A DNA stretch of 35,676 bases from a virus: positions 1 to 35,676 of IMG/VR virus record IMGVR_UViG_3300032236_000554; one strand, 5' to 3'. A program made the position numbers and the translations under genes. Below are positions 18,038-32,125 of this stretch, piece by piece (within the stretch, counting starts at the first letter, position 1; each line of letters starts with the position of its first letter). The notes below the pieces were generated by a model, which made no database searches, was not told where the DNA came from, and worked only from the letters and a program-made list of their open reading frames with translations.

Positions 18038-18151
18038 GGTGTGCCTTCCGTTTGTGAACTGAACCATTTGGTTCATGAGTCAATCTAAACACGGCCAGGT
18101 CAACCCGGTCTACATTTTCACGGAAGTTTTTTCATAACAGTTTGATAACGG
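18038..18151 (-). promoter_or_regulatory. Promoter/operator module A
   Basis: One of three related intergenic regions. From the start codon upstream it contains the ribosome binding site, a perfect palindrome TGAACC-ATTT-GGTTCA (18060-18075), a -10-like TAGATT (minus strand), a degenerate half-site (GGTCTACA) 36 bp from the palindrome, and paired GTTAT boxes (18131-18149, plus-strand TTCATAACAG then TTTGATAAC). Spacing between the TGTAG box and the palindrome is 39 bp, as in modules B and C. The palindrome is probably bound by a phage or host regulator. Confidence 0.75.
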
Positions 18152-19498
18152 TCAAACACCCAAACCGTGACCACAAGACGGGCAGACCAGGGCAGACTTC
18201 GGGGCGGGCATGCGACACGACGGGCAGAACTTCGCCAGGGCGGCCAGACCCATGATTGACGACTGGCCGGCCATCAAGTCAGTCATCGCCCAAACCATCG
18301 CATCCATGCGGTCAGGGCTGTCGCCGCTGTCAGGTGTCCAGTTCGTCATCTGGTCTTCAAGTTCAGGGAACGCCCCAACATGATGCGCCCGGTGTTGCTC
18401 ATAAAGGGCGGCCACAGGTTCAGCCCTGATTAGTTTGCCGCGGGTCGCCGTCACCTTCGTGTAAGCAATCGACGGGTCAACCTGGCGCAAGACCAGTTCA
18501 ATCATGTCGCCGCCGTTGTTGGTTTCGCCGACGATGCGGTCAGCCTGATGCCGGTGGTATGCGTCAACGGCCGCCCTAGCCCATGCCTGGGGGCTGGCGC
18601 GAAGCGTCAAGTCTTCAAGCACATAGTAATGACCATCGTTCGCAACACCGGCCACAACGATGCCGGTCATGTCGCTGTCGCCGCCTGATGTGACGGCCGG
18701 GTCAATGGCGACCACGATGCGAGTGAGTGGCGGGGCTTCGTCGACCCTGGCCGCTTCGACCATGTCACGCGACCACAACGCGCCTTCAACATCGTCGATA
18801 ATCTCGCCATACAGTTCTTGACGACCCAGGCGTGTGCCTTCGTAACGCAACCGCATTTCGGCGAGTGCGCTCTCTGACAGGTTGGCGGCGTTGTCGAAGG
18901 TTGAACCACGAACCACGACGGTGTCGTCGCGTTTGTTTAGTTCTTTGATTTGCTTCGTCGGCCGGGGTGTTGTTGTGATGATGGTTTGCGGGTGTTCGCC
19001 CAGGCGAAGGCCGAACTTGTATTGGTCGAATGTGTCGGTGTATTTGAACGACGCCAGTTCATCAAACCAACCACCATGAAACTGTGGACCACGAAGGCGG
19101 TTCGGTTCTTCACCTGAGAACAGTTTGATGCGTGACCCGTTGGTCAACACGATTTCACCGATGCTTCGGTTGTAGTCCTTCAACGCCTGGTATTCCCGCA
19201 AGATGTTGACCACGCCTGACACGCCTTCGGCACAGGTGTCGCGGGCGTCAGCGAAGGTCGGGGCAACAATCGCCCAACGGGTGTTTGGGTTGCGTGACGC
19301 TTGCCAGGCCAACCATTCGGCGGCGGTTCGGGTCTTGCCCCAACCACGGCCGGCCAACACTAACCAGGTGTTCCAGTCGTGGCTGTCAGTCGGTATCTGG
19401 TCAGGCCGGGCTAGTTGATGTGTCCACCGGGTTCGCCTGGCCGCTAGCCAATAAAGCGGCGAGTTCGGCGACGGCGGTGTCAATGCTGTTTCTGTCAT
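18152..19498 (-). CDS. terL: Terminase large subunit with C-terminal zinc ribbon
   Basis: A 448-residue DNA-packaging motor and nuclease. Walker A GRGWGKT (50-56), Walker B WFDE (acidic pair 146-147), coupling motif TTTPRPT (176-182). The RNase H-like nuclease has candidate acidic residues D266 (VVAIDPAVTSGG), E325 (ETNNGGD) and D396/D399 (SPDRMDAM). After the nuclease comes an added zinc ribbon, C425-x2-C428 and C439-x2-C442, not part of the minimal TerL fold. The ATG overlaps the small terminase gene by 98 nt. It is the last gene before module A. Confidence 0.93.
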   Translation of the reverse strand: MTETALTPPSPNSPLYWLAARRTRWTHQLARPDQIPTDSHDWNTWLVLAGRGWGKTRTAAEWLAWQASRNPNTRWAIVAPTFADARDTCAEGVSGVVNILREYQALKDYNRSIGEIVLTNGSRIKLFSGEEPNRLRGPQFHGGWFDELASFKYTDTFDQYKFGLRLGEHPQTIITTTPRPTKQIKELNKRDDTVVVRGSTFDNAANLSESALAEMRLRYEGTRLGRQELYGEIIDDVEGALWSRDMVEAARVDEAPPLTRIVVAIDPAVTSGGDSDMTGIVVAGVANDGHYYVLEDLTLRASPQAWARAAVDAYHRHQADRIVGETNNGGDMIELVLRQVDPSIAYTKVTATRGKLIRAEPVAALYEQHRAHHVGAFPELEDQMTNWTPDSGDSPDRMDAMVWAMTDLMAGQSSIMGLAALAKFCPSCRMPAPKSALVCPSCGHGLGV

Positions 19499-19856
19499 AA
19501 GTTTCGACCTGTGCCTTCACATTTAGGTTTGTTGGGGCGTCTAAGCCCAGAAGCCTGGCGCGGGCGGCTATGACCCGCAACACGGCGTCAACGGCGCGTG
19601 TGTCGCCGCTGATGGCCTTCTGCCACAGGCCGGCCTGTAATCGGTCTAACCGTTCTAGTTCAATGTCACGGTGTTCTTCAAGGTTTGGGCGAACCATGCG
19701 TTCAGCCGCCCGTTGATAAGCGCGGTAAGCCCCGCTTGCGTTGGCGTAGCCGGTTTGTTTGGCGATGCCTTCCCAGGTGATGCCGGCCTTGCGAAGTTCG
19801 ACGACGCGCGCTTCGGTTTCAAGTAACGCCGGTTCTGGGGCTTTTTTGCTTGTCAT
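19401..19856 (-). CDS. terS: Terminase small subunit
   Basis: A 151-residue protein. The N-terminal helix-turn-helix (VVELRKAGITWEGIAKQTGY) would bind the packaging site. A middle helical region (LDRLQAGLWQKAISGD, then VLRVIAARARLLGLDAP) matches actinophage small terminases. The C-terminal 32 residues are encoded in the 98-nt overlap with terL. It lies directly upstream of terL and after the kinase gene. Confidence 0.8.
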   Translation of the reverse strand: MTSKKAPEPALLETEARVVELRKAGITWEGIAKQTGYANASGAYRAYQRAAERMVRPNLEEHRDIELERLDRLQAGLWQKAISGDTRAVDAVLRVIAARARLLGLDAPTNLNVKAQVETYDRNSIDTAVAELAALLASGQANPVDTSTSPA

Positions 19857-19870
19857 GGTTTTACTCTATC

Positions 19871-20401
19871 TCAGGCAAACACGGTAGCCAAGATGAAGTT
19901 GGCGGCCTGGTCGGGGGTTAGGTTGCCGGGGATTGTGATGGCTTCGTGGCGTTCTGCCAGGTTGCGGTGTTTAGTGACACGGCCGGCGACCCAGGTCGGG
20001 TTCTGTTGTTTGGTCTTCGCCTGGTCGGCTCGCAACTGTCGGCGGTCTGTTGCCACGGCCGGGTTGGTGTCTAGGTAAAACAGCCACAGGTCGCCACAGG
20101 CTTCGGCTAGTTCCATGAAGCGGTTGTTGGCCAGGCGGTCGCCTTCACCGATGACGATGTCGGCGTCGATGTCGGGCAACCAGTTTTCGATGGTTTCGAT
20201 GACCGTGTAAGGGAGTGTGTCTGTGCCGCTGAATGGGGGTTTGTGCCAACCCAGGGCGATGATGTCGTTGGTGTTGTCGCTGAACCGGCGGTGTTTGACT
20301 GGGTGCGGTTCGTCGCCTAGGTGTCGCCAACGGTTTGTTAGTGCCTGGCTGACGGTTGTTTTGCCCGCGCCGGGTGCGCCAATGATGTAGATGGTCAGCA
20401 T
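19871..20401 (-). CDS. P-loop kinase, candidate DNA-base or nucleotide kinase
   Basis: A 176-residue protein. Walker A GAPGAGKTT (8-16) at the extreme N-terminus; an acidic Walker-B-like segment DADIVIGEGDR (79-89); a later basic segment with DRRQLRADQAKTKQQ. Small kinases of this class lie beside TET/JBP and ParB-like genes in phages and are proposed to phosphorylate hydroxymethylated pyrimidines in DNA (related enzymes act on 5-hydroxymethyluracil). Here it is three genes downstream of the TET-like gene and next to terminase. A kinase for free deoxynucleotides is the main alternative. Kinase fold is clear; substrate is inferred. Confidence 0.75.
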   Translation of the reverse strand: MLTIYIIGAPGAGKTTVSQALTNRWRHLGDEPHPVKHRRFSDNTNDIIALGWHKPPFSGTDTLPYTVIETIENWLPDIDADIVIGEGDRLANNRFMELAEACGDLWLFYLDTNPAVATDRRQLRADQAKTKQQNPTWVAGRVTKHRNLAERHEAITIPGNLTPDQAANFILATVFA

Positions 20402-20402
20402 G

Positions 20403-20642
20403 TTATTCGCGCGGGGTGTGGATTTTGGTGATGGCGTATTGCCAGGCGGTCACTTCTGACGCGGTGGCTGTTGGTTCTTTGGCCAGGGTTTCAAGGGTTT
20501 CTATGATTTCGGCTTCGCGAAGGTCGCGACCCATTTCGATGGCGAACCCTAGTTGTTGGGCGACCATGTTGTAAGCGGAGTTTGCTTCGGCTAGTTGCTC
20601 AGGTGTTGGTGGTATAAGTTCGGCCTGGGTGTCGTCGGTCAT
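20403..20642 (-). CDS. Small acidic helical protein in the modification cluster
   Basis: A 79-residue protein (AELIPPTPEQLAEANSAYNM and onward), predicted helical and acidic. The ATG overlaps the stop of the upstream 55-residue gene (ATGA), and its own stop is one base from the kinase start, so all are co-translated. Family not recognised. Its place between TET-like and kinase genes suggests an accessory function, but the sequence does not reveal one. Confidence 0.6.
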   Translation of the reverse strand: MTDDTQAELIPPTPEQLAEANSAYNMVAQQLGFAIEMGRDLREAEIIETLETLAKEPTATASEVTAWQYAITKIHTPRE

Positions 20643-20806
20643 TCTGTTCCTTTGTTGATTAGGCGGCGAAGGTCGCTGAGTGCGATGTCGCCACGCATGG
20701 GCGGGTTCGTTGCTAGGTCGTTCAATAGTTTGATGATGCGTTCGCGTTCGGCGATGATGCCAGTCTGGAAGGCGATGCTTGTCAGGCTGGCGGGTTGGCC
20801 GGTCAT
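20639..20806 (-). CDS. Small 55-residue protein between TET-like and acidic-protein genes
   Basis: The sequence reads MTGQPASLTSIAFQTGII, then AERERIIKLLNDLATNPP and MRGDIALSDLRRLINKGTE. The start overlaps the TET-like stop (ATGA) and the stop overlaps the next start (ATGA), so it is embedded in a translationally coupled chain. Predicted to be two helices. The ERERIIKLLNDL segment resembles the helical tail of many small actinophage proteins of unknown function. Confidence 0.65.
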   Translation of the reverse strand: MTGQPASLTSIAFQTGIIAERERIIKLLNDLATNPPMRGDIALSDLRRLINKGTE

Positions 20807-21690
20807 GGTTTGGCCTTCTTCGGTTTGATTTTGGTTTCGGCTTCGCCGGTCAACACTTGTTTCATGTGGTCTTCGCGTTCGGTTCTGATGGTTTTGCCGC
20901 GGGCGGTTTCAACGGCAAAGGTGAAGCAATCCTTCATACCGCGCAACGCATAGTAAACGACGCTGTAACGGTATGCGCCTTCGGCACGGGCTTCCATGGG
21001 GGTGACGCCGTGAACGAACTTGTAACCAGGGAAGAACAGAACCCAACCGTCGCGACAGGCGATTGTTGCGTTGTATTCAGGGAAGTTCAGATAACCGCCG
21101 TTCATGTTCTTGCGTATAACCGGCATTGCTGACCAGGTTTGAAAGTTGAACGCGTCGCGGTGGTATGGCAACTGGCTGGATTTGTTGATGACGCCCGAAG
21201 TCCATAAAGCGTCGTCTGTCATTCGCCATTCGTCGGTGATGCCTGACCCGGCCATGGTTTCGACATCGGCTTCGAATAGGTGCGGCGCGAACTCTTTGAA
21301 CATGTTGGCGAACTTGGTGGCGAAGGCAATCAGAACGCCGTGTTCTTCGGGCTGTTCGCGGGCTAGGGTTGTGGGCTTACAGGCGTCACGGCCACGCATT
21401 GCGGCGCGGGGTGACATTCCGAAGGTGCGCGACAGGTTGGTGATGCGTGACGCGCTTCGGGTGATGTTTGCCCCATACTTGACAGACAGAACCGACCGGC
21501 GCAACAAGGCGACTTCGTCTTCCATGGGGAAGTATGCCAAGAACGGTTCATCGGTTTCGGCGTCGACATAGATGCCGGCCTGGTTGATGTTCGCGTCGAT
21601 GACTGGCACGGTGTCGCCAACCATGGCTGTGGCTTCGTCTGGGGTTATCACCCTGGCCACTTTGATGATGGGCAGGTCGCTCAGTTTCAT
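20803..21690 (-). CDS. TET/JBP-like 2-oxoglutarate/Fe(II) dioxygenase
   Basis: A 295-residue protein. The double-stranded beta-helix core shows the iron-binding H177-x-D179 (QLPYHRDAFNFQTWSAM), a distal H227 (GYKFVHGVTPM) and R241 for 2-oxoglutarate (YRYSVVYY), with GGYLNFPEYNATIACRDGW between them. Upstream, SRTFGMSPRAAMRGRDACKP is the N-terminal signature of the phage branch of this superfamily. Phage TET-like enzymes are known to oxidise 5-methylcytosine in DNA to 5-hydroxymethylcytosine. It overlaps the ParB-like gene (ATGA) and precedes the kinase and terminase. A C5-cytosine methyltransferase elsewhere in the window could supply the substrate. Confidence 0.88.
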   Translation of the reverse strand: MKLSDLPIIKVARVITPDEATAMVGDTVPVIDANINQAGIYVDAETDEPFLAYFPMEDEVALLRRSVLSVKYGANITRSASRITNLSRTFGMSPRAAMRGRDACKPTTLAREQPEEHGVLIAFATKFANMFKEFAPHLFEADVETMAGSGITDEWRMTDDALWTSGVINKSSQLPYHRDAFNFQTWSAMPVIRKNMNGGYLNFPEYNATIACRDGWVLFFPGYKFVHGVTPMEARAEGAYRYSVVYYALRGMKDCFTFAVETARGKTIRTEREDHMKQVLTGEAETKIKPKKAKP

Positions 21691-22352
21691 GCGTGGGGTG
21701 CGCTTTCCTTGAAGAAGATTTCCATCAGGTTGACGATGGCGTCGGCGTTGGTTTCAAGGTTCGCGGTCTTGCGATGTTCGGCCAGTTTGTCGATTACCCA
21801 GACATAGGTGTCGTTTGGGTAATCAAGTATGACCATTCGGGTCGCCTTGTCGTTGTATCGTTCGGTGTATTCAGCGAGTGATGGCCGGCGTTCGACATTG
21901 TTTTCGTTCGGCACGGTTTCGGCCTGGGTGTTGATGACGGTGTCGATGTTGATTTGTGGCACGGTTGCTTCTTGAATACCGGCGATTAGGTCGTCGATGT
22001 CGTCGTCGCTGTAACCTGTGCCATCAAGGTCGGCCAGGCCGGCCAATAAGTCGGCCAGGGCGGTGTCGTCATAACTGCCCAGGTCGGCGATGCGGTTGTC
22101 GAACGCGACGATTTTGGCGGCGGTGTCGTCATCAACATCAACGAACACGACGGAGATGTGCGGCCATCTAAGGGCTTGGGCGGCCATAAAGGTGTGATTA
22201 CCCGCCAAGATGGTGTTTCCCCGTCTGTTGACCGTCAGCGGCTTGTATTGGCCGTATCTGGTCAAACTGTCGGCAATCGCTTCGATGTTGCCTTTGCGCG
22301 GGTTGCCTGGATAGGTGGTTAGGTCGCCCAGGGCGACTTCTTCGATTTCCAT
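21687..22352 (-). CDS. ParB-like nuclease-domain protein
   Basis: A 221-residue protein. The ParB N-domain is clear: VALGDLTTYPGNPRKGNIEA, then IADSLTRYGQYKPLTV, the G-N-H-T box (51-54), and an AAKIVAFDNRIADLGSYDD segment. A second conserved region (TRMVILDYPNDTYVWVIDKL, about 172-191) follows an acidic linker. Proteins of this type sit next to methyltransferases, TET/JBP and terminase genes in phages and are thought to handle or nick modified DNA. Start ATG 22352 has AGGATT upstream; a 19-residue in-frame extension runs into the previous gene and is rejected. Confidence 0.82.
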   Translation of the reverse strand: MEIEEVALGDLTTYPGNPRKGNIEAIADSLTRYGQYKPLTVNRRGNTILAGNHTFMAAQALRWPHISVVFVDVDDDTAAKIVAFDNRIADLGSYDDTALADLLAGLADLDGTGYSDDDIDDLIAGIQEATVPQINIDTVINTQAETVPNENNVERRPSLAEYTERYNDKATRMVILDYPNDTYVWVIDKLAEHRKTANLETNADAIVNLMEIFFKESAPHA

Positions 22353-22362
22353 GTGTCCAATC

Positions 22363-22665
22363 CTAGGCTTCGACGCTGGGGTTGCCAAGAACCAGGGCGC
22401 GGAACTCACCTTCGTATAGTTCTGTGACCGCTTCTTTGATTTTGTAGTGGGCGATGTTGTAAGCGTTGCCGCCTTCGAATAGGGCGTTGTATTGGTTGAA
22501 CGCTTTGTTGAACGCCTGTTCAGCGATTGGGGCGAGATGGTTGCCGTTGACTTCTAGGCCTTTCCACATGATGAACGCGCGGGCGGCGGCGTCGACACGG
22601 TTGGCGCGTTCGGCTTCGATTAGTTCGTGCGGGTCTGGGTTGTTTTCGTCAGTTAGGTAAGTCAT
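22363..22665 (-). CDS. Helical protein of unknown function
   Basis: A 100-residue protein, mostly helical (HELIEAERANRVDAAARAFI, then AEQAFNKAFNQYNALFEGG). Strong ribosome binding site (CCGGAAGGACAAACC) before ATG 22665, which lies inside the end of the preceding nuclease-like gene. Family not recognised. It precedes the ParB-like gene by 10 nt and is probably co-transcribed with the modification cluster. Confidence 0.6.
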   Translation of the reverse strand: MTYLTDENNPDPHELIEAERANRVDAAARAFIMWKGLEVNGNHLAPIAEQAFNKAFNQYNALFEGGNAYNIAHYKIKEAVTELYEGEFRALVLGNPSVEA

Positions 22666-23077
22666 TGGTTTGTCCTTCCGGGTTGGGTTTGAAGACGGCG
22701 CGAACGATGTCGGTCACTTTGACCAGTCGGCCGGCCGTCGGGTTGGTGTCGTTTTGCGGTGATGTGAACTTGATGGGTGGCGCGGTTTCGGCCAGGCGTT
22801 TCAGCGTTTCGGTGTCGATGGTGATGAACCCGTTGCCGCAACCGCCGGCGAATGAATAGAACTTCGCTTCTGATGTGTTGATGCCTGACTTCTTCCAGAC
22901 GCCTTTCCAGTTCAGTTGATGGGTTTCGACATACAGGTTGCCGGTTTCATTGGCACGGTAGTCGGTCTTTACTTCGATGGTGGCGTCGGCCAGGGCGTCA
23001 ACGAACGACCCGACTAACCGTTCGCCGATTTGTCCGCGGCGGTTGTCGATGTCGAACCGTTCGTTACGCTTGTCCAT
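22649..23077 (-). CDS. PD-(D/E)XK-like nuclease candidate
   Basis: A 142-residue protein. RRGQIGERLVGSFVDALADA is a typical first helix, followed by the beta strand ATIEVKTDYR with the E-x-K catalytic motif, then YVETHQLNWKG and a G-rich turn. This suits a small DNA endonuclease or junction resolvase. Start ATG 23077 lies four bases after the SSB stop; the longer frame upstream overlaps SSB and is rejected. It lies in the recombination cluster with SSB, RusA and the Cas4-like nuclease. Moderate confidence in fold, low in substrate. Confidence 0.55.
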   Translation of the reverse strand: MDKRNERFDIDNRRGQIGERLVGSFVDALADATIEVKTDYRANETGNLYVETHQLNWKGVWKKSGINTSEAKFYSFAGGCGNGFITIDTETLKRLAETAPPIKFTSPQNDTNPTAGRLVKVTDIVRAVFKPNPEGQTNDLPN

Positions 23078-23081
23078 GGGG

Positions 23082-23438
23082 TCAGAACGGCATGTCGTCA
23101 ATCGGGATTGGGGTCGCCGATGGGGCTGGGGCTTGGTAGCCTGTCGCTTCGAACTGTGCGCCGTTGATGCTGGTCTTGACGCTTCGCCCTGGCTTGCCTT
23201 CACGGTTCAGTTTTGGTTGGCCGGTTTCGCGGTCAATCCAGTCGTCGATGGTGGTCGACAATAGGCCGGTGAAGATGCCGGTCGCGCCTTCGCGGAAGTT
23301 GACCGGGGCTTCGAACCATGCCGTGTATTTGCGTTGTGCCTGTTCGCCGTCGCGGGTTTTGAAGAACTCCGTGACTTCGACGCCGCGGTCTTCGAAGAAG
23401 ATGCGGGTGACTGTGCCTTCTACTGTGATTTTAGCCAT
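23082..23438 (-). CDS. ssb: Single-stranded DNA-binding protein
   Basis: A 118-residue protein. The N-terminal part is an OB-like beta barrel (KITVEGTVTRIFFEDRGVEV, later KYTAWFEAPVNFREGATGIF). After a Pro/Ala linker the protein ends in IDDMPF, matching the acidic C-terminal tip (DDxPF) by which SSBs recruit partner enzymes. It lies among recombination genes and overlaps the upstream gene by 8 nt. Confidence 0.75.
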   Translation of the reverse strand: MAKITVEGTVTRIFFEDRGVEVTEFFKTRDGEQAQRKYTAWFEAPVNFREGATGIFTGLLSTTIDDWIDRETGQPKLNREGKPGRSVKTSINGAQFEATGYQAPAPSATPIPIDDMPF

Positions 23439-23655
23439 GTTGTGTTTGTCCTTTGTTTGTTATGGCGGTGAAGACTTCCGCGAGTGCGGCCGCGTCTTCG
23501 ACGGTGATTTCGATGTTGTGTTCGGGTTCATACAACGCGTTCAAGAATGTGACGCTGACGACGGCCAGGTCTGTGAAGTGTTCGGCCTTGAAGTATTGGC
23601 CGTCTTTGACGATTGTTTCGTAGGTCGTTGAATGAACGACGCTTGTGTTTTTCAT
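23431..23655 (-). CDS. Small protein of unknown function downstream of whiB
   Basis: A 74-residue protein (VVHSTTYETIVKDGQYFKAE and onward), with alternating beta then a C-terminal helix (VEDAAALAEVFTAITNK). A strong ribosome binding site (ACGGAAGGCACAACC) lies at the end of the WhiB gene, and the ATG overlaps its stop (ATGA). Not recognised. Confidence 0.6.
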   Translation of the reverse strand: MKNTSVVHSTTYETIVKDGQYFKAEHFTDLAVVSVTFLNALYEPEHNIEITVEDAAALAEVFTAITNKGQTQHG

Positions 23656-23909
23656 GGTTGTGCCTTCCGTTGATTAGATTGTAGCGACTTCTTGAAGTTT
23701 GCGCGTTGTAGTGGCGTCGTGCCACCCCAAACACCATCCACGATTTTGTTTTCGATTGCGTAAGCCGCGCATTGCTGAATGATTGGGCAGTTGCGGCACA
23801 CTTCGATGGCTTCGTCTTCGGCTTCTTTGTTGAAGAACATTTCGGGGTCGGTGGTTTGACAGATGGCGTCTAGCCACAGGTTCGCGTCACCGATTAGGTC
23901 AAGCGTCAT
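23652..23909 (-). CDS. whiB: WhiB-family iron-sulfur transcription factor
   Basis: An 85-residue protein. The four cluster-binding cysteines are C17, C38, C41 and C47 (ICQ, then VCRNCPIIQQC), followed by the family turn GVWGG (59-63) and a short basic C-terminus for DNA. WhiB proteins are confined to actinobacteria and their phages. The phage TM4 homologue alters host division and excludes superinfection. It overlaps the RusA gene by 11 nt. It is one candidate regulator of the shared promoter modules in this window, but nothing in the sequence links them directly. Confidence 0.92.
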   Translation of the reverse strand: MTLDLIGDANLWLDAICQTTDPEMFFNKEAEDEAIEVCRNCPIIQQCAAYAIENKIVDGVWGGTTPLQRANFKKSLQSNQRKAQP

Positions 23910-24315
23910 AAGACACCACCAAGTTGGTTTGGTCTAACCGGCCGTAGATTTTAGTCGCCTTGATTTCGACCACCTGGTTGTCGTCGATGATGACATTGCC
24001 GGCTTGAACCAGGGCGTCAAGCGCATACCTGACCAGTTTGTCCAGGTCGGGTTTGACGGTGTTGAACATGCGGGTGACGGCTGACTTCGGCCGACGGAAC
24101 ACGAACACGGCCTGAACGATGATTGGCGTATCCGCTGGCGGCATTATCCACTTGTCTTCGTATGCGGTTCTGTGAATGGTTGCTGACGCGGCCAGGCGGG
24201 CAGTCTTCAAACCTTTGTTGGCTTCGACTAGAACCGCGCGGCCGCCGCGAACATACGCGGTCTTTGAACCCTGGGGTCGGGCTTTGCCTTCAATCACGAA
24301 GTAGATGTCAGGCAT
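23899..24315 (-). CDS. rusA: RusA-family Holliday junction resolvase
   Basis: A 138-residue protein. The start has GKARPQGSKTAYVRGG. The catalytic core is KPDLDKLVRYALDAL (D90, D92) and NVIIDDNQVVEIKATK (D111/D112 and K119). RusA enzymes cut four-way DNA junctions made during replication and recombination, and can debranch DNA before packaging. It overlaps the upstream gene by 8 nt. Confidence 0.88.
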   Translation of the reverse strand: MPDIYFVIEGKARPQGSKTAYVRGGRAVLVEANKGLKTARLAASATIHRTAYEDKWIMPPADTPIIVQAVFVFRRPKSAVTRMFNTVKPDLDKLVRYALDALVQAGNVIIDDNQVVEIKATKIYGRLDQTNLVVSYDA

Positions 24316-25926: not shown

Positions 25927-25928
25927 GA

Positions 25929-26180
25929 TTATGCGCCTACCTTTGCGGTCAAAATACCAACGATGTTCGCAAACGAAACGATTTTGCTGAACCCGTGAAA
26001 CTCGATGAATGAATGATGACGAACAGACTTGCCTTCAAAGGTTGCTTCGATGCCGACGCCGCGGCCTTCGTTGTCGGTGATGATGTTCAAGATGATGCCA
26101 CCGTTGTAAGTGCGAGTAACTGATTTCAAACCAGCCTGGTCGGCTAGGGTTTTGAGTTGCTCAATCTTTGTCGTGGTCAT
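25929..26180 (-). CDS. Small protein of unknown function, first gene behind module B
   Basis: An 83-residue protein (MTTTKIEQLKTLADQAGLKS and onward) with a beta centre (YNGGIILNIITDNEGRGVGI) and a hydrophobic C-terminus. Strong ribosome binding site (ACGGAAGGCAAACCA) before ATG 26180. It shares the MTT N-terminus and general layout with the next gene, so the two may be distant relatives. Being first in the operon suggests early expression. Confidence 0.6.
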   Translation of the reverse strand: MTTTKIEQLKTLADQAGLKSVTRTYNGGIILNIITDNEGRGVGIEATFEGKSVRHHSFIEFHGFSKIVSFANIVGILTAKVGA

Positions 26181-26296
26181 TGGTTTGCCTTCCGTTAGTG
26201 TTCTGAACCGTCTGGTTCATGATGTAAGTCTGACACAAACCACCGACACGGTTCTACATTTCAAACATGTTTTTTCATAACAGTTCGATAACAACC
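26181..26296 (-). promoter_or_regulatory. Promoter/operator module B
   Basis: Second copy of the shared module. It has the ribosome binding site, a palindrome TGAACC-GTCT-GGTTCA (26204-26219) with perfect 6-bp arms, a half-site GGTTCTACA 36 bp away (left arm degenerate), and the paired GTTAT boxes at 26274-26292 (plus strand TTCATAACAG then TTCGATAAC). The TGTAG-to-palindrome distance is again 39 bp; the GTTAT-to-TGTAG distance is 34 bp, against 35 in A and C. It probably drives the 26180-18152 operon. Confidence 0.75.
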
Positions 26297-26676
26297 TAAG
26301 CAAACCAAACCGACCCGGCGGGCTTCCGATGGGTAGAGAATGGCTTATTCAGCCACGCTCTAAACACCCGACCCGTTTGGGTTCGTCAGGGATTTGGTCA
26401 CGGGGTCAAGCCACTACAACTTGACCGATTGCGCCGTGTGAATGAAGACCCGCTGATGCGGTGATGATGGCCAGGCAATCCGTTTTGACCATCGTCGTCA
26501 TTCGCTTACTGTTCTCTACAACACAGTTTGTCGCCCGATGCCAACCAAACCAGGCGCGTCAAACCCGCCACGCTCTAACCGCCGGTAACCGCCCTGGTCA
26601 GGGGTCGGGAAGTTGACTTAGCGACGGCCTAACGAACGCAATGTTCTCCGTCGACCTGGCGAACACGCCGACCATC

Positions 26677-26685
26677 TGATACGAT
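26677..26685 (+). promoter_or_regulatory. Extended -10 promoter element on the plus strand
   Basis: TGATACGAT matches the extended -10 pattern TGnTAnnnT. The -35 region, TGGCGA at 17-bp spacing, is weak. A start near 26692 would place a strong plus-strand terminator about 50 nt downstream. Confidence 0.45.
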
Positions 26686-26691
26686 GGACTT

Positions 26692-26745
26692 GCTCATTCG
26701 TGTTCACTAGGAAGCCCCTGGCCATTCGGTCGGGGGTTTTCTTTT
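26692..26745 (+). ncRNA. Possible short plus-strand RNA
   Basis: The stretch lies between an extended -10 element and a strong intrinsic terminator, both on the plus strand in a region with no plus-strand gene. The predicted transcript is about 54 nt and mostly consists of the terminator hairpin plus a 20-nt 5' segment. All coding genes run the other way, so this would be the only plus-directed transcription unit. The end positions are inferred. Confidence 0.4.
26712..26745 (+). terminator. Strong intrinsic terminator oriented to the plus strand
   Basis: AAGCCCC-T-GGCC-ATTC-GGTC-GGGG can fold into a stem of about 11 pairs with a 4-nt loop and one bulge, followed by TTTTCTTTT on the plus strand. 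The minus-strand side has no matching T-tract, so it would work poorly for the HNH-like operon that ends at 26774. Confidence 0.7.
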
Positions 26746-26773
26746 GGGTTTATTCAGTTGTGATTGTAGAAGA

Positions 26774-27148
26774 CTACGCCGTTGGTTCGAACCCGTCAAG
26801 CGGATGCCCCAGAACGGCCACAGGCGACCGCGTGAAGTCATCAGCCAGGGCGAACCAAGTCTGTGTCGTGTAATCAAACACGGGGGCGTCAGCGGGCGTT
26901 TGCCATGAAGACAACTTCCACCCGTTCAGCCTGGCCGCTTCGGCGAACCTGGCGTCGGCTTCGACCTGACCATTGGCCAGGGAACAGAACACGATGATGT
27001 TGGCCGGGCTGTCAGCCTTCACCCGGTTGCCGTTGCCCATGCCGCGGCCAAGACGATGCTGTGGCACAAGCGTCGCGTCAGTTGTGCCGCAATGCCAACA
27101 ACGACCTAGGTCGCGGTCAAGATACTTTTGAAACTGTTTCGGCGTCAT
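26774..27148 (-). CDS. HNH-like zinc protein
   Basis: A 124-residue protein from ATG 27148. CWHCGTTDATLVPQHRLGRG is followed by SPANIIVFCSLANGQVEADA. The C-x2-C, H, N and C spacing resembles HNH-type nucleases found in actinophages. The C-terminal part reads GWKLSSWQTPADAPVFDY. The start overlaps the upstream stop (ATGA); an ATG four codons earlier (27160) is less likely. It is the last gene of the module C operon. Nuclease activity is inferred from the motif. Confidence 0.6.
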   Translation of the reverse strand: MTPKQFQKYLDRDLGRCWHCGTTDATLVPQHRLGRGMGNGNRVKADSPANIIVFCSLANGQVEADARFAEAARLNGWKLSSWQTPADAPVFDYTTQTWFALADDFTRSPVAVLGHPLDGFEPTA

Positions 27149-27489
27149 GCGTGTTTCCATTGAAGTTCAACCTGGCGGGCGATGACGCTGACCGCCACCT
27201 GTGCGCTGTCGATGCTTTTCAGTTTCGCCTTCACACGGTTCAGTTCGGCCTTCGCAATGTCTAGTTGTAACTTCGCTTCAAGCGCGCCCAGTTTCGCCCT
27301 GGCGGCCTTTTCGGGGGCTGTGCCAGGTTCAGCGTTCAGCAACCCAACGGCTAGGGTTCGTTCGTGTTCGCCATCAAGAACGGCGACCTTCACTTCGGCT
27401 TCGTAAAGGGCGTTGATGCCCTTCTGGCTCTCGCCCATTAGCCGGTTCAGTTCAGCGATGACTTGGGGCGGCGTCGTGATGTCAGTCAT
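27145..27489 (-). CDS. Coiled-coil protein of unknown function
   Basis: A 114-residue protein (ITTPPQVIAELNRLMGESQK and onward), Ala/Lys/Glu/Leu-rich and predicted to be one long coiled coil. Members of this conserved small actinophage family often lie near replication or nuclease genes. ATG 27489 is preferred over an in-frame TTG at 27498. The upstream 60 nt are AT-rich and could hold a promoter (TTGACT on the minus strand), but no good -10 is seen. Confidence 0.65.
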   Translation of the reverse strand: MTDITTPPQVIAELNRLMGESQKGINALYEAEVKVAVLDGEHERTLAVGLLNAEPGTAPEKAARAKLGALEAKLQLDIAKAELNRVKAKLKSIDSAQVAVSVIARQVELQWKHA

Positions 27490-27550
27490 GCTAACCAACC
27501 CCAGACAGAACTGAATGAAACATCAAAAGTCAAAACCTTTATCTTCATAA

Positions 27551-28222
27551 TCAAAACAACCCATCTAACAGTTCGCGTAACGCCGCTTCTGCCTGTTGTG
27601 GCACAACGCCGTTACCACAGGCTTTTAGTTCTTGTTTGCGGGTCAACCCGATGTCTGTGACCCATCCGTCAGGCAAACCCATCAAAAACTCCGTGAACTT
27701 CGATGACAACCTGCGCGCGCCATTTTTACCGTCTGGTTTGGTTGGTTCTGGCGATGACCGCCCTAGGATGCTTTCCCATCTTGCGATGGCTGGCGCAAAC
27801 TTTCCCCAGTTCGTTGAGCGTTCAGTTTCCCAAACCTCGCTTGCCAAAGTTGTGCGGCGGCCTTGGTTGTGACCTGTGTTTTTGCTGTCATCGACCTGCG
27901 GCGTTGGCAACAGTTCATTGACGAACACGGCGCGCGACAATGTATCGGTTTGCGTCACGCCGTTGCGACGATGTTCTTTGTTACCGTCTTTATAGTCGCG
28001 CGCCGTTGGGGTAGGCAACGATGAAGACGCGTTCGCGTCGATGTGGCGCGCCGGCGTCGGAAGCGCGAAAAGTTGTCCACCGACAGTCATACCCGAGTTC
28101 GGCCATACTTCCCGCCACGGCTCCCAATGCTCGCAGATTAGGTTTATCAGGGGGGCTTCCCATACACCAAGAACACGGTTCCAGGTCGCTATGGGCATTT
28201 GCGCTGAGTATTCCACGGACAT
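27551..28222 (-). CDS. C5-cytosine methyltransferase, C-terminal part (TRD, motifs IX-X)
   Basis: About 223 residues. Three LPTP units (LPTPARHI, LPTPTARDYKDG, LPTPQVDD) mark the target-recognition region. Near the end are the motif-IX-like RRLSSKFTEFLMGLPDGW and motif X (ACGNGVVPQQAEAAL). It lacks motifs I-VIII, which lie in the upstream overlapping frame, so the two products together make one methyltransferase, as in the two-subunit M.AquI. Start is uncertain: TTG 28228, ATG 28222 (SD-like GGTGG upstream) or ATG 28198. VWPNSGMTVGGQLFALPTP, encoded inside the overlap, matches related proteins, so an upstream start is favoured. Confidence 0.8.
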   Translation of the reverse strand: MSVEYSAQMPIATWNRVLGVWEAPLINLICEHWEPWREVWPNSGMTVGGQLFALPTPARHIDANASSSLPTPTARDYKDGNKEHRRNGVTQTDTLSRAVFVNELLPTPQVDDSKNTGHNQGRRTTLASEVWETERSTNWGKFAPAIARWESILGRSSPEPTKPDGKNGARRLSSKFTEFLMGLPDGWVTDIGLTRKQELKACGNGVVPQQAEAALRELLDGLF

Positions 28223-28595
28223 TTTCAATTACCACCAATCTAGGTCGGATTGTTTCGATAGCGCGGGCAAACTCCGACCATAACCCGCTTCGTGTTCCAT
28301 CTTTTAGACCGGCGCGTTTGCCGGCCAATGACAGGTCTTGACATGGAAAACCACCTGTCAGAATGTCGACCTGTTCGACCTGTGTGAAGTCGACCTTTGT
28401 TACATCGCGATAGTTCGGCACACCTGGGAAGTTTTTTTCTAGTATTTTGCTTGGCGCGTCATCGTATTCGCAATGCCAAATAACTTTGCCACCCGTGACA
28501 GCGGCGACCGCTAGGTCAAGACCACCGTAACCACTAAATAAAGACCCGATTGTCATTTGTGAACCATTTGATTGAACGGTAACAACATTTTTCAT
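27990..28595 (-). CDS. C5-cytosine methyltransferase, N-terminal part (motifs I-VIII)
   Basis: A 201-residue protein. Motif I FSGYGGLD (20-27), motif IV GGFPCQDLS with the catalytic C85, motif VI ENVRG (124-128) and motif VIII HRRERVFIVA (185-194) are all intact. The protein stops seven residues after motif VIII, before any target-recognition domain. The ATG overlaps the zinc-ribbon stop (ATGA); an internal ATG (MTIGSLF) lacks a ribosome binding site. The product would transfer methyl groups to cytosine C5 in DNA once paired with the downstream part. This region is visibly more AT-rich than its neighbours, suggesting later acquisition. Confidence 0.88.
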   Translation of the reverse strand: MKNVVTVQSNGSQMTIGSLFSGYGGLDLAVAAVTGGKVIWHCEYDDAPSKILEKNFPGVPNYRDVTKVDFTQVEQVDILTGGFPCQDLSLAGKRAGLKDGTRSGLWSEFARAIETIRPRLVVIENVRGILSANAHSDLEPCSWCMGSPPDKPNLRALGAVAGSMAELGYDCRWTTFRASDAGAPHRRERVFIVAYPNGARL

Positions 28596-28768
28596 CGGGC
28601 TTCACGACCCCATCCTGTGCCGTTGAATGTGACGGCCGGGGCTTCCCAGACACGGGTCGCGGTCATGCCGCATTGGTCACACTTGACGGCCTGATGAATG
28701 TCTTCGGTTATCGGTTGCGTGACAACCGTTTCGTGTTGCTCAGGGCAACGGTATACATAACTAGCCAC
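28592..28768 (-). CDS. FmdB-like small zinc ribbon protein
   Basis: A 58-residue protein from GTG 28768. ASYVYRCPEQHETVV is followed by VKCDQCGMTATRVWEAPAV and ends TFNGTGWGREAR. The cysteine spacing and the closing V-x-F-x-G-x-G-W are the FmdB-type zinc ribbon pattern often seen in phages. AGGAAGG lies about 8 nt upstream of the GTG, inside the end of the previous gene. Possible regulatory or nucleic-acid binding role, not shown. Confidence 0.75.
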   Translation of the reverse strand: MASYVYRCPEQHETVVTQPITEDIHQAVKCDQCGMTATRVWEAPAVTFNGTGWGREAR

Positions 28769-29141
28769 GGGGCGGCCTTCCTATTCGTTCGCGTTCTAGG
28801 TTATCCAAGATTTCTTCGGGCGTCAGTTTGACCCCGGTGATGTATGAACGGTCAAGTGCTTCGAACATGACCGGGTCAACGATGTGCGACCGTTCGACAC
28901 AATCGCGTTTTCGACACAGGCGAACACCTGGCCGGTAAAGTTTGCCGTCATCAGTCAACGGGTTTTCGTCGGCGTCGAACTCGCCGTGCCAGGGTCGACA
29001 GACGCCGTATTCTGTGACCACCGACCGCATGGGTTTGGCCAGGCATGAAGAACACAACCCAGGGCGGCCGCGTTCGATACGCTTCGCCAGTTGATTGTTT
29101 TCATCAGCAACGCCACAACGGTCACAGAATACGGCGGTCAT
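28761..29141 (-). CDS. Multi-cysteine zinc-binding protein
   Basis: A 126-residue protein. An N-terminal CDRCG and CSSCL pair forms one likely zinc site. A second region, GVCRPWHGEFDADENPLTDD, then LCRKRDCVERSHI, carries further Cys/His and resembles a conserved actinophage motif. The C-terminus is helical (LTPEEILDNLERERIG). Function unknown; zinc binding is likely from the motifs. Confidence 0.65.
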   Translation of the reverse strand: MTAVFCDRCGVADENNQLAKRIERGRPGLCSSCLAKPMRSVVTEYGVCRPWHGEFDADENPLTDDGKLYRPGVRLCRKRDCVERSHIVDPVMFEALDRSYITGVKLTPEEILDNLERERIGRPPRG

Positions 29142-29144
29142 GTT

Positions 29145-29270
29145 TCAGTCGTCGATTAGATGGTCGTCGTCGTCAGACAGACCGGCCACGAAGGCGGTCA
29201 ACCAGAACAGGGCGGCCAACATGATGCCGATGAAACCGAAGACGCCGACGATGATGATGATGATGTTCAT
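29145..29270 (-). CDS. 41-residue single-TM peptide
   Basis: MNIIIIIVGVFGFIGIMLAA continues into LFWLTAFVAGL and ends in the acidic SDDDDHLIDD. One transmembrane helix is expected. The start overlaps the previous stop (ATGA) and has GAAAGGA upstream. The run of five isoleucines corresponds to an (ATC)5 repeat in the DNA, a possible length-variable site. A longer in-frame extension upstream is rejected. Confidence 0.65.
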   Translation of the reverse strand: MNIIIIIVGVFGFIGIMLAALFWLTAFVAGLSDDDDHLIDD

Positions 29271-29854
29271 GGGCGAAGTCCTTTCAACGGGTTGATTACA
29301 AGATACCCGTCTTTGTGCTGACCCGCAATGAACAGGTAATCGCCTTCGAACCAAACCCCGCTGTCACCGGGGCGGCTGTCTTCACCGGCGCGCCAGATGA
29401 CGCCTTCTTCAATCAACAGGTCGAACAGTCGTTCATGTTCGGCTTCGCGGCCGGCCTTGAAGACATCAACAATCGCCCGCCGGAACACATGCCCCGGCAC
29501 AGACCAGTCGATTACTTCTTGGTCGTCGTCAGGTCTAGCGTCAACGCTTCCAGTTCGGTGATTAGCCTGGTCAGTTGTGAACCAGGTCTTGGCGTCTTTG
29601 CCACCTGGGCGCGGATTGCCTTCAACATCGCCAACTGGCCTTGAAGATGACCGTTCCTTCTTGCGGCTTCTGTAAGCGCGCGAAGGTCGTCGTGAATGGG
29701 TGTTTCTCTCATTGGTTGTTGCCTTCCTTAGTTGTGATTTGTCGATGTTTGTTTTGTCGACGAACGCCCTGACCATGGCCAGGGCTTCGTCAATCGTTTC
29801 GGCTTCAATGAAACCCAGGTCGCCGTCGACCGTCTGGTAGATGAACAGGTTCAT
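29267..29854 (-). CDS. 195-codon open frame containing a nested gene, coding in part
   Basis: The frame is open from ATG 29854 to TGA 29267. Its first 47 codons (MNLFIYQTVDGDLGFIEAET) and its last 77 (VPGHVFRRAIVDVFKAGREA) look like genuine protein. The middle (THSRRPSRAYRSRKKERSSS) is low-complexity and lies exactly over another gene (29512-29712) in a different frame with a strong ribosome binding site. It may be one fused protein with an internal overlapping gene, or two genes; the second could start at GTG 29500. The ATG shares a base with the upstream stop. Confidence 0.5.
   Translation of the reverse strand: MNLFIYQTVDGDLGFIEAETIDEALAMVRAFVDKTNIDKSQLRKATTNERNTHSRRPSRAYRSRKKERSSSRPVGDVEGNPRPGGKDAKTWFTTDQANHRTGSVDARPDDDQEVIDWSVPGHVFRRAIVDVFKAGREAEHERLFDLLIEEGVIWRAGEDSRPGDSGVWFEGDYLFIAGQHKDGYLVINPLKGLRP
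29512..29712 (-). CDS. 66-residue helical protein, nested in another frame
   Basis: MRETPIHDDLRALTEAARRN continues into QLAMLKAIRAQVAKTPR and a Leu/Thr-rich end. It has one of the best ribosome binding sites in the window (TAAGGAAGGCAACAACCA before ATG 29712), and its composition is far more protein-like than that of the overlapping frame. Family not recognised. Confidence 0.65.
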   Translation of the reverse strand: MRETPIHDDLRALTEAARRNGHLQGQLAMLKAIRAQVAKTPRPGSQLTRLITELEALTLDLTTTKK

Positions 29855-30045
29855 CAGTTGCCAGTCCGTTCGTCTTCCATGGCGTCACACCGACAACCGT
29901 TGTCGGTTCGGCAACTGTCACATGAACGGTCGTGTTCGGCACAGACACATTCGTCGGCACATTCGTCACATTCGTCACAGTCAGGCGCGTCGACATCAGG
30001 CGGCGTCAAGTATGCGTCTAGGCTCACCTTGTCCACCCCGCCCAT
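29854..30045 (-). CDS. Cysteine-rich acidic protein
   Basis: At most 63 residues, with about ten Cys, many in CxxC or CxC form (DCDECDECADECVCAE, SCDSCRTDNGCRC). Several metal ions or disulfides are possible. ATG 30045 overlaps the upstream gene by 22 nt; GTG 30027, overlapping that stop as GTGA, is an equally good start and gives 57 residues. Function unknown. Confidence 0.55.
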   Translation of the reverse strand: MGGVDKVSLDAYLTPPDVDAPDCDECDECADECVCAEHDRSCDSCRTDNGCRCDAMEDERTGN

Positions 30046-30362
30046 GCGTCACGACCGGCCAGGGTGATGCGCCAAACAATCGCCTGGCGGCCGCTGGCGG
30101 TCTTCTCGCGGTCGCCTGTGTCTTCGACCAACCCTTCGGCCACCAAGGCGGCACGGCGGCTTCTGATGCCCGAAGGCGAAGCGTTAGGGGCTAGGCCGGC
30201 ATGAACCGCCGTGTAATAGCGGTCAACCAGTTCTTCATCAGCCAACCGTCTGAACAGAAGGCCAAGGATTGCGTGTTGTGTCGCCGTGATGCGGCTGTCG
30301 CTGATAGAAGCGGCGGCGGCGTGGCTAGTCGACGGGTCAGTCGCGCGGGCTAGGGCGGTCAT
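30024..30362 (-). CDS. Winged-helix-like DNA-binding protein
   Basis: A 112-residue protein. The opening ATDPSTSHAAAASISDSRIT, then ITATQHAILGLLFRRLADEE, SPSGIRSRRAALVAEGLVED and GRQAIVWRITLAG follow the layout of small actinophage winged-helix proteins: helix, recognition helix, beta wing. It is a candidate regulator for the palindromic operators, but so is WhiB. ATG 30362 shares a base with the upstream stop. Confidence 0.7.
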   Translation of the reverse strand: MTALARATDPSTSHAAAASISDSRITATQHAILGLLFRRLADEELVDRYYTAVHAGLAPNASPSGIRSRRAALVAEGLVEDTGDREKTASGRQAIVWRITLAGRDAWAGWTR

Positions 30363-30613
30363 TAGTTGTCACCCTTCGCGCTCGCGGCTTTCTTCGCGTT
30401 GGCCTTGTTGAACGCCTTGATGTCACCCTTGGCGATTAGGTCGGCCGCGCTGATGATGGCGATGGCCTGACCCAGAAGGTCAACGCTCGCGTCGACAATC
30501 TTAGCCAGGGTCTTGATGCGGGTCGCCTGACGGTCGACCTGAACCTTCAACATGATGGTCGTGGTTGCCCAGGCCACGGTTACGACTGCTAGGGCGATTA
30601 GTTCGGTGTTCAT
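30362..30613 (-). CDS. Small protein with N-terminal membrane helix
   Basis: An 83-residue protein. NTELIALAVVTVAWATTTIM is a transmembrane segment or signal anchor. A helical region (RIKTLAKIVDASVDLLGQAI) and a Lys/Ala-rich tail follow. Strong ribosome binding site (AAGGAAGGCAACAA) before ATG 30613, which overlaps the upstream stop. Membrane role likely; function unknown. Confidence 0.6.
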   Translation of the reverse strand: MNTELIALAVVTVAWATTTIMLKVQVDRQATRIKTLAKIVDASVDLLGQAIAIISAADLIAKGDIKAFNKANAKKAASAKGDN

Positions 30614-30786
30614 TTGTTGCCTTCCTTCTTGTGATTTTCGTCGGCCAGGATTAGGCCGGCGACGATTGCGATGATGGTGACGCCGCCCGCCCAACCAGGG
30701 TGAACCCTGGCGAAGTCACACAGGCCGATGTAAGTCATCACGCTGATGAAGATGTAGAAGCCGTAACGGGCGATTATCTTGACCAT
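30610..30786 (-). CDS. Small two-TM membrane protein
   Basis: A 58-residue protein, MVKIIARYGFYIFISVMTYI then GLCDFARVHPGWAGG and VTIIAIVAGLILADENHKK. Two hydrophobic segments flank a short loop. The stop overlaps the next ATG (ATGA), and the two neighbouring membrane genes may act together. Phage early membrane peptides of this kind sometimes change host envelope or exclusion, but nothing here shows that. Confidence 0.6.
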   Translation of the reverse strand: MVKIIARYGFYIFISVMTYIGLCDFARVHPGWAGGVTIIAIVAGLILADENHKKEGNK

Positions 30787-30789
30787 GGG

Positions 30790-31353
30790 TTACGCCGCCA
30801 GTTCTGATTGCTTGACCATGATTAGCGTCTTCAATGAAACCGTTTCGCCCAGGCTGTTCGACCAGGTGATGTTCAACAGTTCAGCGTTGGCCGCCCATAG
30901 GTCACGAAGCGACTGTTTGGTCGTTGCGCTGGCAATCGCGTGAACGATGGCGTCGCGTTCTTCGTCGGTCATGTTCGCCGGCTTCGGGGCTGGCGGGGTG
31001 ACGCCGCGTTCGGCTTTTGCCATTTCTTCACGGGTGGTTCGTTTAGAACCTGAGTAGCCCGCGTTGGCCAGGCCGCGGCCGATTGCGCTGGTTTCACAGG
31101 TTTCAAGGGCGGCCGTCTTCTGTGCCATGCCCGCGCCGTCGATTTCGAAGGCCAGGCCGGTGGCCTTAGCCAAACCTTGCGCCTGGTCGATTGCCGACAG
31201 GTAGATGGTTGCTTCGACGACCCAGGTTGACACCTGACGGTCTTGGATGGTTGTCAGGTTGCGGGTGATGATGCGACCGTCTGGGTTGTCGACATAGAAC
31301 CGCGCGATGCGTTCTTCGACTGTTTCGTAGTTTTCAAGGTTGAAGTTTGCCAT
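30790..31353 (-). CDS. Conserved actinophage protein, possible recombination or DNA-binding accessory
   Basis: A 187-residue protein. Recognisable parts are NYETVEERIARFYVDNPDGR, a beta region (VSTWVVEATIYLSA), and ETCETSAIGRGLANAGYSGS, a T-S-A-I-G-R motif conserved among phage proteins often found near annealing or nuclease genes. The C-terminal half is helical (ATTKQSLRDLWAANAELLN). Strong ribosome binding site (ACGGAAGGCAAAAC). An ERF-like single-strand annealing role is possible, but I cannot confirm it. Confidence 0.55.
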   Translation of the reverse strand: MANFNLENYETVEERIARFYVDNPDGRIITRNLTTIQDRQVSTWVVEATIYLSAIDQAQGLAKATGLAFEIDGAGMAQKTAALETCETSAIGRGLANAGYSGSKRTTREEMAKAERGVTPPAPKPANMTDEERDAIVHAIASATTKQSLRDLWAANAELLNITWSNSLGETVSLKTLIMVKQSELAA

Positions 31354-31380
31354 GATGTTTTGCCTTCCGTTGGGTTTGGG

Positions 31381-31620
31381 TTAGTTGGTTGGTGCGTGGT
31401 CAGGGATTAGTTCGATGAACCAACCGATGCCGGCTTCGTGGCAGGGCATCCAAGTTGCCGCCGCGATTGCGTGACGGTTGAACTTGTTGGCCTGACGCTG
31501 GGCTGACGAACGGTTGGCGTAGGTCTTGATGATGACCTGGCCGTCGGGGCTGACCGATGCGTATCGGGTTGGTGCGGTGTTTGCGAACGCGATGTCGAAC
31601 GCGGTGTTGGTGTTGCTCAT
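31381..31620 (-). CDS. Small protein of unknown function
   Basis: A 79-residue protein from ATG 31620, fixed by AAGGAAGGCAACAAA; the frame extends upstream into the previous gene but without a start signal. MSNTNTAFDIAFANTAPTRY, a basic Arg/Gln/Asn helix and a C-terminal GIGWFIELIPDHAP. Not recognised. Confidence 0.6.
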   Translation of the reverse strand: MSNTNTAFDIAFANTAPTRYASVSPDGQVIIKTYANRSSAQRQANKFNRHAIAAATWMPCHEAGIGWFIELIPDHAPTN

Positions 31621-31648
31621 TTTGTTGCCTTCCTTGTTGGGGTTTGGG

Positions 31649-32002
31649 TTATGCGGTGCGGGTGACGATGGCCGACTTGCCAAGAAGGGCGACGATGCTG
31701 TCCTTCTGGTCTTGGGTTAGGTTCTCCATGCTCACGGTGAAGCGAAGGCCTTCTGGCTTGACTGGGTAACGGTGTTCAATCATCGCGCGGGTCATGTTGA
31801 CACAGTCTTCGTAACCGTTTTCGTCGATTGACCAAACGGTGAAACCCGTGTGGTTGTAGCCGCGGCCGTCAGGCCATGATGCGCGCTTGCCGATGGTGAT
31901 GGTCTTCTTGCCGTTGCGGTTGGTGAAGATTGCGCCGGTCTGGATGTCTGACCAGTCGTAGTTTGGCTTGGTGATTGCTTGGGTCTTAGTTGCGTTGCTC
32001 AT
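31649..32002 (-). CDS. Protein of unknown function, first gene behind module C
   Basis: A 117-residue protein. The centre is beta-rich (DIQTGAIFTNRNGKKTITIG, then GRGYNHTGFTVWSIDENGY) and the C-terminus helical (NLTQDQKDSIVALLGKS). Strong ribosome binding site (ACGGAAGGCAAACCA) before ATG 32002. Not recognised; expected to be expressed from promoter module C. Confidence 0.6.
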   Translation of the reverse strand: MSNATKTQAITKPNYDWSDIQTGAIFTNRNGKKTITIGKRASWPDGRGYNHTGFTVWSIDENGYEDCVNMTRAMIEHRYPVKPEGLRFTVSMENLTQDQKDSIVALLGKSAIVTRTA

Positions 32003-32125
32003 TGGTTTGCCTTCCGTTGTTTGACCGAACCGTTTGGTTCATGTATCTACTATGGCATACATGAACCGATTGGTTCTACACATTCACGAAACTATTTTGA
32101 TAACAGTTTCATAACGGTCAAACTA
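32003..32125 (-). promoter_or_regulatory. Promoter/operator module C, with two full operators
   Basis: Third copy, and the most complete. Palindrome 1 is CGAACC-GTTT-GGTTCA (32026-32041). Palindrome 2 is TGAACC-GATT-GGTTCT (32062-32077), 36 bp away. The paired GTTAT boxes lie at 32097-32115 (plus strand TTGATAACAG then TTTCATAAC). In modules A and B the second operator is degenerate. Spacing is 39 bp TGTAG-to-palindrome and 35 bp GTTAT-to-TGTAG. It probably drives the 32002-26774 operon. Confidence 0.78.

Follow-up and report, generated by a model that had tools for sequence, protein, structure and literature searches.

Why does a single virus record carry three look-alike intervals, each ahead of a different operon? 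The record in question, IMG/VR entry IMGVR_UViG_3300032236_000554, was analyzed over its 35,676 bases (positions 1-35,676; hereafter, the window). An original prediction had described the intervals as modules made of paired GTTAT boxes, a TGTAG half-operator, a TGAACC-n4-GGTTCA palindrome and a ribosome binding site (RBS). We found the three modules at 18038-18151 (P1), 26181-26296 (P2) and 32003-32125 (P3), on the minus strand like the genes downstream, with ATG codons at 18037, 26180 and 32002. The spacings were also as described, with 35, 34 and 35 base pairs (bp) from GTTAT to TGTAG and 39, 39 and 39 bp from TGTAG to TGAACC. We thus agree that these are promoter-like modules, one before each operon, with constrained spacing, and that a common regulator is plausible. 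The modules are real, conserved and functional-looking, and they are a promoter cassette rather than a set of operators. By comparison with relatives, the cassette comprises a tandem 11-bp repeat, a sigma-A-like promoter slot at a fixed distance, a sequence able to form a hairpin at the predicted transcription start and a strong RBS. To the joint model, in which the three modules are copies of one standard promoter cassette of mostly WhiB-encoding, apparently lytic and presumably aquatic actinophages, bound by the host regulator MtrA and protected at the transcript end by the hairpin, we assign a probability of about 0.55.

The GTTAT pair proved to be, as proposed, a direct repeat phased at one DNA turn, with an 11-bp unit of the form cGTTAYc-n4. 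On the minus strand, it occupies 18129..18150 in P1 (CGTTATCAAACTGTTATGAAAA, two 11-bp units, predicted positions -74 to -53), 26272..26293 in P2 (TGTTATCGAACTGTTATGAAAA) and 32095..32116 in P3 (CGTTATGAAACTGTTATCAAAA). GTTAT-N6-GTTAT occurs three times in the window, against 0.013 expected from 300 second-order Markov simulations. Relatives were collected from virus contigs by protein searches with the terminase (80), the gene at 30790-31353 (64) and the exonuclease (4), and in a pattern search, GTTAY-N6-GTTAY boxes were found repeatedly ahead of promoters in many distant ones. A 22-position profile was then trained on 12 boxes from relatives, with the window and its closest relative, contig L004, left out. 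This profile ranked the modules first to third in the window, with 33.1 bits for P1, 29.4 for P3 and 25.7 for P2, while the next match reached 7.8 bits and the best of 200 simulated windows 17.3. When a refined profile was combined with a downstream RBS, 30 sites were found in 20 of 35 contigs (a set that includes the window, L004 and phage phiPsal1), against a mean of 0.35 sites (range 0-2) for 20 column-permuted profiles; a few of the 30, which are weaker matches, fall within or close to coding regions and could have arisen by chance. Of all the evidence, this recurrence of profile and RBS argues most strongly that the module is conserved as a functional unit. In 31 boxes, T at position 1 and A at positions 3, 7 and 14 were invariant, and both half-sites kept the same register. 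The GTTAT pair is, on these comparisons, the core of the module and, if a single regulator is shared, its likeliest binding site. A tandem box in reverse orientation was also observed in seven contigs (L104, L105, L107, L125, L147, L148 and L149), at the 3' end of an apparent opposite-strand gene, possibly a lysin, whose stop codon the box overlaps by frame reading.

Downstream of the box, promoter elements were predicted by eye and simple scoring. The predicted -35 elements are TAGACC in P1 (18107..18112), TAGAAC in P2 (26251..26256) and TAGAAC in P3 (32073..32078), all on the minus strand, and they begin 26, 25 and 26 nucleotides (nt) after the start of the second GTTAT. After 18-bp spacers come the predicted extended -10 elements TGT-TTAGAT (18083..18088), TGT-CAGACT (26227..26232) and TGC-CATAGT (32049..32054), respectively, also on the minus strand. 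All three hexamers are preceded by TGn, and the distance from the -10 to TGAACC is 7 nt in each case. The P1 -35 matches the -35 of relatives in position, and L004, whose terminase is 92% identical and which has the orthologous P1 promoter, carries TTGAAC-18-CATACT at the same place. Other relatives showed TTGACA-18-TATCCT or TAATCT (G013/G014) and TTGCGC-18-CATAAT (G052). The TGTAG word (18110-18114 in P1), which had been read as a half-operator, is absent from the L004 promoter, though the box, the -35 and -10 slots and the hairpin are kept there, and it is probably the edge of the predicted -35. Its fixed 39-bp distance from the palindrome would then follow from the position of the -35, the 18-bp spacer and the 7-nt discriminator. 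Taking TGTAG as a -10 with GTTATG as its -35 was ruled out because L004 lacks TGTAG and -10-like hexamers in most relatives keep a distance of 58-63 nt from the start of the box. A scan for the box-TGTAG-palindrome pattern gave one match, with an unrelated layout.

The palindrome lies where transcription is predicted to begin (+1 or +2) and would form a 5'-terminal RNA hairpin in each transcript: TGAACC-AAAT-GGTTCA at 18060..18075 in P1, TGAACC-AGAC-GGTTCA at 26204..26219 in P2 and TGAACC-AAAC-GGTTCG at 32026..32041 in P3, all on the minus strand. The palindrome is therefore present in all three modules as claimed, except that the outer pair in P3 is T.G (TGAACC..GGTTCG). It is followed on the same strand by the RBS, ACGGAAGGCA at 18042..18051 in P1, with counterparts at 26186..26195 in P2 and 32008..32017 in P3. 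This RBS does precede each module start codon; it is not module-specific, as it also stands before 25688, 23661 and 31361, where palindromes are missing. The P1 palindrome contains an ATG in the same frame as the start codon at 18037 (18037-18076), so that the open reading frame caller extends the gene into the leader; this is not the case for P2. As a motif, GAACC-N4-GGTTC was found four times in the window, all inside modules, against 0.41 expected from simulations. The strict palindrome is thus over-represented, but TGAACC-N4-GGTTCA with up to 3 mismatches gave 20 matches against 17.5 expected, and since the loose form is no commoner than chance, the palindrome alone is unusable as a genome-wide motif.

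The idea of the palindrome as a common operator fared poorly among relatives, as its sequence recurs only in L004 and distant relatives fill the slot with unrelated hairpins. No GAACC palindrome was detected in relatives other than L004, bar single matches judged unrelated, such as one in G005 at 469 that is apparently inside coding sequence. Perfect stems of 5 bp or more just before the RBS were observed in 26 of the 31 box promoters and in 18% of 598 other gene starts, and in a mean of 4.7 of 31 shuffled leaders, these promoters forming roughly ten related groups, so that the counts are not independent. The hairpin mostly begins 70-76 nt from the box start, taking the predicted start sites of the 31 promoters. 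By hand count, about 19 different stem sequences are in use. The loops span 3-12 nt and differ even within a single phage (4 and 5 nt at two promoters of G008); in the window palindromes, the spacing is constant at 4 nt. On the sense strand, A exceeded T in 23 loops and T exceeded A in 0, part of which is a general bias, as control loops also favored A over T by 244:131. Three compensatory changes were noted by eye: G-C to C-G between L109 and L116, with outer pairs broken in L116; C-G to G-C between two G027 promoters; and A-U to G-C between L131 and G041. The unrelated stems, the variable loops, their A-richness in the sense strand and the lack of detected integrase or HTH_3 proteins favor a 5'-terminal RNA hairpin over a repressor operator. 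Box, layout and hairpin slot can be considered established by these comparisons. In another group of relatives (L124, L126-L128, L139 and L142), several GCTAA-type half-sites were seen between the box and the -10 and also in the hairpin, and a sequence-specific DNA reader is conceivable there.

To identify a candidate for the protein that binds the box, we compared it with published sites, and we infer that it would be MtrA: the box fits published boxes of the OmpR family, best those of MtrA of Actinobacteria. In Mycobacterium tuberculosis, MtrA sites are direct repeats of c-G-T/A-n-A-C/T-c with 4 nt in between (PMC6265350), and in Corynebacterium glutamicum, 8-bp repeats with a 3-bp linker, located upstream of the -35 when activating (PMC3353115), so that both have an 11-bp register. 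In Streptomyces coelicolor, the repeats have a 5-bp spacer, and the whiI-a site lies at -69 to -53 (PMC5650626). The phage box, at predicted positions -74 to -53, is upstream of the predicted -35, as at MtrA-activated promoters. Over the 31 boxes, the positions c, G, T/A, A, C/T and c were matched at 0.71, 0.87, 1, 1, 1 and 0.84 in first half-sites and at 0.42, 0.87, 1, 1, 1 and 0.45 in second half-sites, values that are partly built in, as GTTA-based patterns and the profile had been used to select the boxes. The phage boxes thus share with MtrA sites the tandem direct repeat, the 11-bp unit, the G-T-n-A-C/T core and the place upstream of the -35 of activated promoters (PMC6265350, PMC3353115, PMC5650626), but they are more uniform and A/T-rich (cGTTAYc-AAAN), with the second half often having T for C. 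No published phage promoter with an MtrA box was found in the literature searched, which leaves out most subscription journals.

Besides the selection of the boxes and the relatedness of the 31 promoters, other observations weigh against the joint model. The RNA fold z-scores of four leaders were modest, from -0.5 to -2.1. The stem sequence is common within a genome (3 of 3 here), and pairing alone does not require this. For P1, the automatic search preferred a -10 of TAGATT with a 19-bp spacer, and TTAGAT was chosen instead, as it preserves the TGn and the 18-bp spacing seen in P2 and P3. Finally, P3 has a second full palindrome, missing as a separate item from the original prediction: O1, GAACC-AATC-GGTTC at 32063..32076 on the minus strand, which overlaps the -35 and lies 36 bp from the other copy. 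L004 keeps the box, the RBS and the palindrome and likewise has a second full palindrome 36 bp upstream. A transcript starting at the predicted +1 leaves this -35 palindrome of P3 and L004 unexplained.

The last observation leads to the rival that survives best, in which TGAACC-n4-GGTTCA would be the DNA operator through which a phage-encoded regulator controls the three operons, a second operator lying on the -35. It would account for the arms being identical in the four window palindromes while loops and spacers differ, for a second copy overlapping the -35 exactly 36 bp away in both P3 and L004, and for the habit of other phages of likewise repeating one stem at their promoters. However, loop length varies in homologous slots of relatives, even in one phage, a variation incompatible with a fixed dimer; the loops are A-rich on the sense strand only; the upstream copy is not conserved in P1 and has one arm only in P2; and neither integrase nor cI-like HTH_3 repressors were detected. 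Phage_integrase matched in 0 of 26 contigs, and HTH_3 gave no match in the window and none above the cut-off in the 26 contigs, a search that did not exhaust other repressor families and covered a contig that may be incomplete. An operator role for the palindrome, alone or in addition to the hairpin, has about one chance in four. As a widespread element, the double palindrome was discarded, since, among relatives, L004 alone was recovered when viral contigs were scanned for palindrome pairs with a separation of 20-24 nt, the contexts of the other matches being unrelated. Actinobacterial LexA boxes have the form GAAC-N4-GTTC; the corresponding spacing in the palindromes is N6, and a LexA box was rejected.

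For the box itself, it is unlikely, though somewhat less so than for the rivals that follow, that a phage-encoded factor rather than the host response regulator binds it. The window does encode a winged-helix-like protein (30024-30362, phrog_1123) and WhiB (23652-23909), but phrog_1123 was not detected in the long box-bearing contigs G012, G015, G016, G017 and G027 (contigs that may be incomplete), which speaks against it as the binder, and we know of no WhiB protein that binds tandem 11-bp repeats alone. A mere A/T-rich UP element, contacting the alpha subunit of the polymerase with no activator, would suit the A-tracts after the second GTTAT in P1 and P2 and the place of the box upstream of the -35; this is improbable, given that several positions are invariant in 31 boxes, with both half-sites in the same register, and that UP elements are, to our knowledge, not direct repeats of a defined word. 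That the modules are recent duplicates kept by descent, with unconstrained spacing, is very improbable: all three do lie in one genome and have the RBS in common, but their spacers and leaders have diverged and the same layout recurs in distant phages, so that the relatives had already disfavored it. Two further candidates for the box were rejected. The first unit of P1 happens to fit the IHF-type site WATCAANNNNTTR, but the A-tract is on the other side, and we know of no classical IHF in Actinobacteria. A GlnR box would presumably require GAAAC as the second half-site.

Other described systems resemble the hairpin and the layout in part. Because RppH and RNase E need a 5' end that is single-stranded, structures there stabilize mRNA (reviewed in PMC3997798). 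The stabilizing stem-loops of the ompA/papA type are, like the phage hairpin, short and placed at the (here predicted) transcript start before the RBS (PMC3997798), but the phage hairpin is tied to a conserved promoter layout, recurs at several operons and has a phage-specific stem. The extended start-associated sequences (ESAS) of cluster K mycobacteriophages are also repeated inverted repeats with variable spacers near the translation starts of many genes (PMC3203893). They differ in being 17-bp imperfect repeats tied to a 13-bp start-associated sequence (SAS) word (PMC3203893), neither of which is present in the modules by inspection, and no tandem GTTAT box was seen in the passages on ESAS. 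The SAS word GGGATAGGAGCCC is absent by inspection from the start-codon regions of P1-P3, where ACGGAAGGCA stands instead. With the operators of temperate-phage repressors, the modules share a palindrome common to several promoters of one genome and different in other phages; they differ in that the loops in relatives are variable in length and strand-biased, and that repressor and integrase were not detected.

The genes called in the window are all on the minus strand and encode tailed-phage proteins (portal, MuF-like, head proteins, tape measure and terminase), together with a RecE/Cas4-like exonuclease, RusA, a ParB-like protein, a DNA methyltransferase and WhiB. The P1 operon opens with a gene of 65 amino acids (17840-18037) and continues with portal, head and tail genes; in most of the more distant relatives, the gene after the terminase adjoins it directly, without a promoter there. 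The P2 operon runs from 26180 down to 18152 and includes the RecE/Cas4-like exonuclease, a RusA-like resolvase, WhiB, the ParB-like protein and the large terminase, and the P3 operon, from 32002 down to 26774, holds accessory and DNA-modification genes; all three are on the minus strand. From gene order, the tail and lysin-like genes at 35605-32240 would extend the P1 unit if the genome were circularly permuted. In the P3 operon, a C5-type DNA methyltransferase is apparently split over overlapping frames (27551-28228 and 27990-28595), for which a frameshift or an assembly error is possible. On the plus strand (26680-26745), a GC-rich inverted repeat with a run of T after it resembles an intrinsic terminator against transcription running counter to the gene direction.

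With regard to relatives and host, a megablast of bases 1-25000 gave no near relatives among sequenced phages. The best named relative is Pontimonas phage phiPsal1, through one gene of the P3 operon (50%), and no convincing box was seen there. Terminase relatives in genome contigs were matches of only 43-53% in unrelated phyla and indicated no host. WhiB was above the cut-off in 40 of 50 contigs of relatives. As WhiB is described as an indicator of actinophages (PMC10202952), its presence in the window and the relatives points to an actinobacterial host.

Outside the modules, a candidate structured non-coding RNA of ~340 nt occupies the gap at 26316..26656 on the minus strand and ends just upstream of the P2 box. 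At least 13 other contigs have gaps that align with this one, and the candidate also lies upstream of the exonuclease operon in L021, L022, L020, L153, L154, L155, L156, L090, L105, L107, L108, L125 and L185. The consensus fold of a 13-sequence alignment has 52 pairs, 44 of which show changes on both sides. In this alignment, the fraction of paired cells was 89.9%, whereas shuffles gave 67.8% and slid structures 36-44%, and the covariation score was 0.650 against 0.249. Since this alignment had also served to predict the structure, the test is tilted in its favor, but the differences are large nonetheless. The candidate had no match in Rfam at gathering and none credible at E up to 1, and blastn detected nothing similar in the phage collection. 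In L022, L023, L159 and L161, reverse box-like repeats lie between this conserved RNA and the exonuclease operon, and a forward P2 box is not evident.

In the mechanism that we propose, a host response regulator of the OmpR family, most likely MtrA, would bind the tandem repeat upstream of the -35 and activate transcription. The transcript would begin with the hairpin, which may protect its 5' end from decay of the RppH, RNase E or RNase J type, and this protection would keep the long operon mRNA stable. The three copies would split the genome into three co-regulated units, with accessory and DNA-modification genes under P3, recombination, WhiB and terminase under P2, and portal, head and tail under P1. 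A broader proposal is possible but on balance doubtful: that aquatic, apparently lytic actinophages across a broad set have brought their main operons, via the box, under the control of MtrA, an essential host cell-cycle regulator, tying phage transcription to the state of the host MtrAB system, with a phage-specific 5' hairpin added and, in this phage and L004, the palindrome serving also as a DNA element on the -35. The signature already separates promoters from chance in some twenty contigs and, if the model is true, would allow promoters to be predicted across a large group of actinophages, most of them uncultured. The model would also account for the coordination of three operons in such phages, for which our analysis showed neither an RNA polymerase nor a sigma factor of phage origin, and it would mean that lytic phages sense the state of a response regulator that is essential to their hosts and governs replication and division in Actinobacteria.

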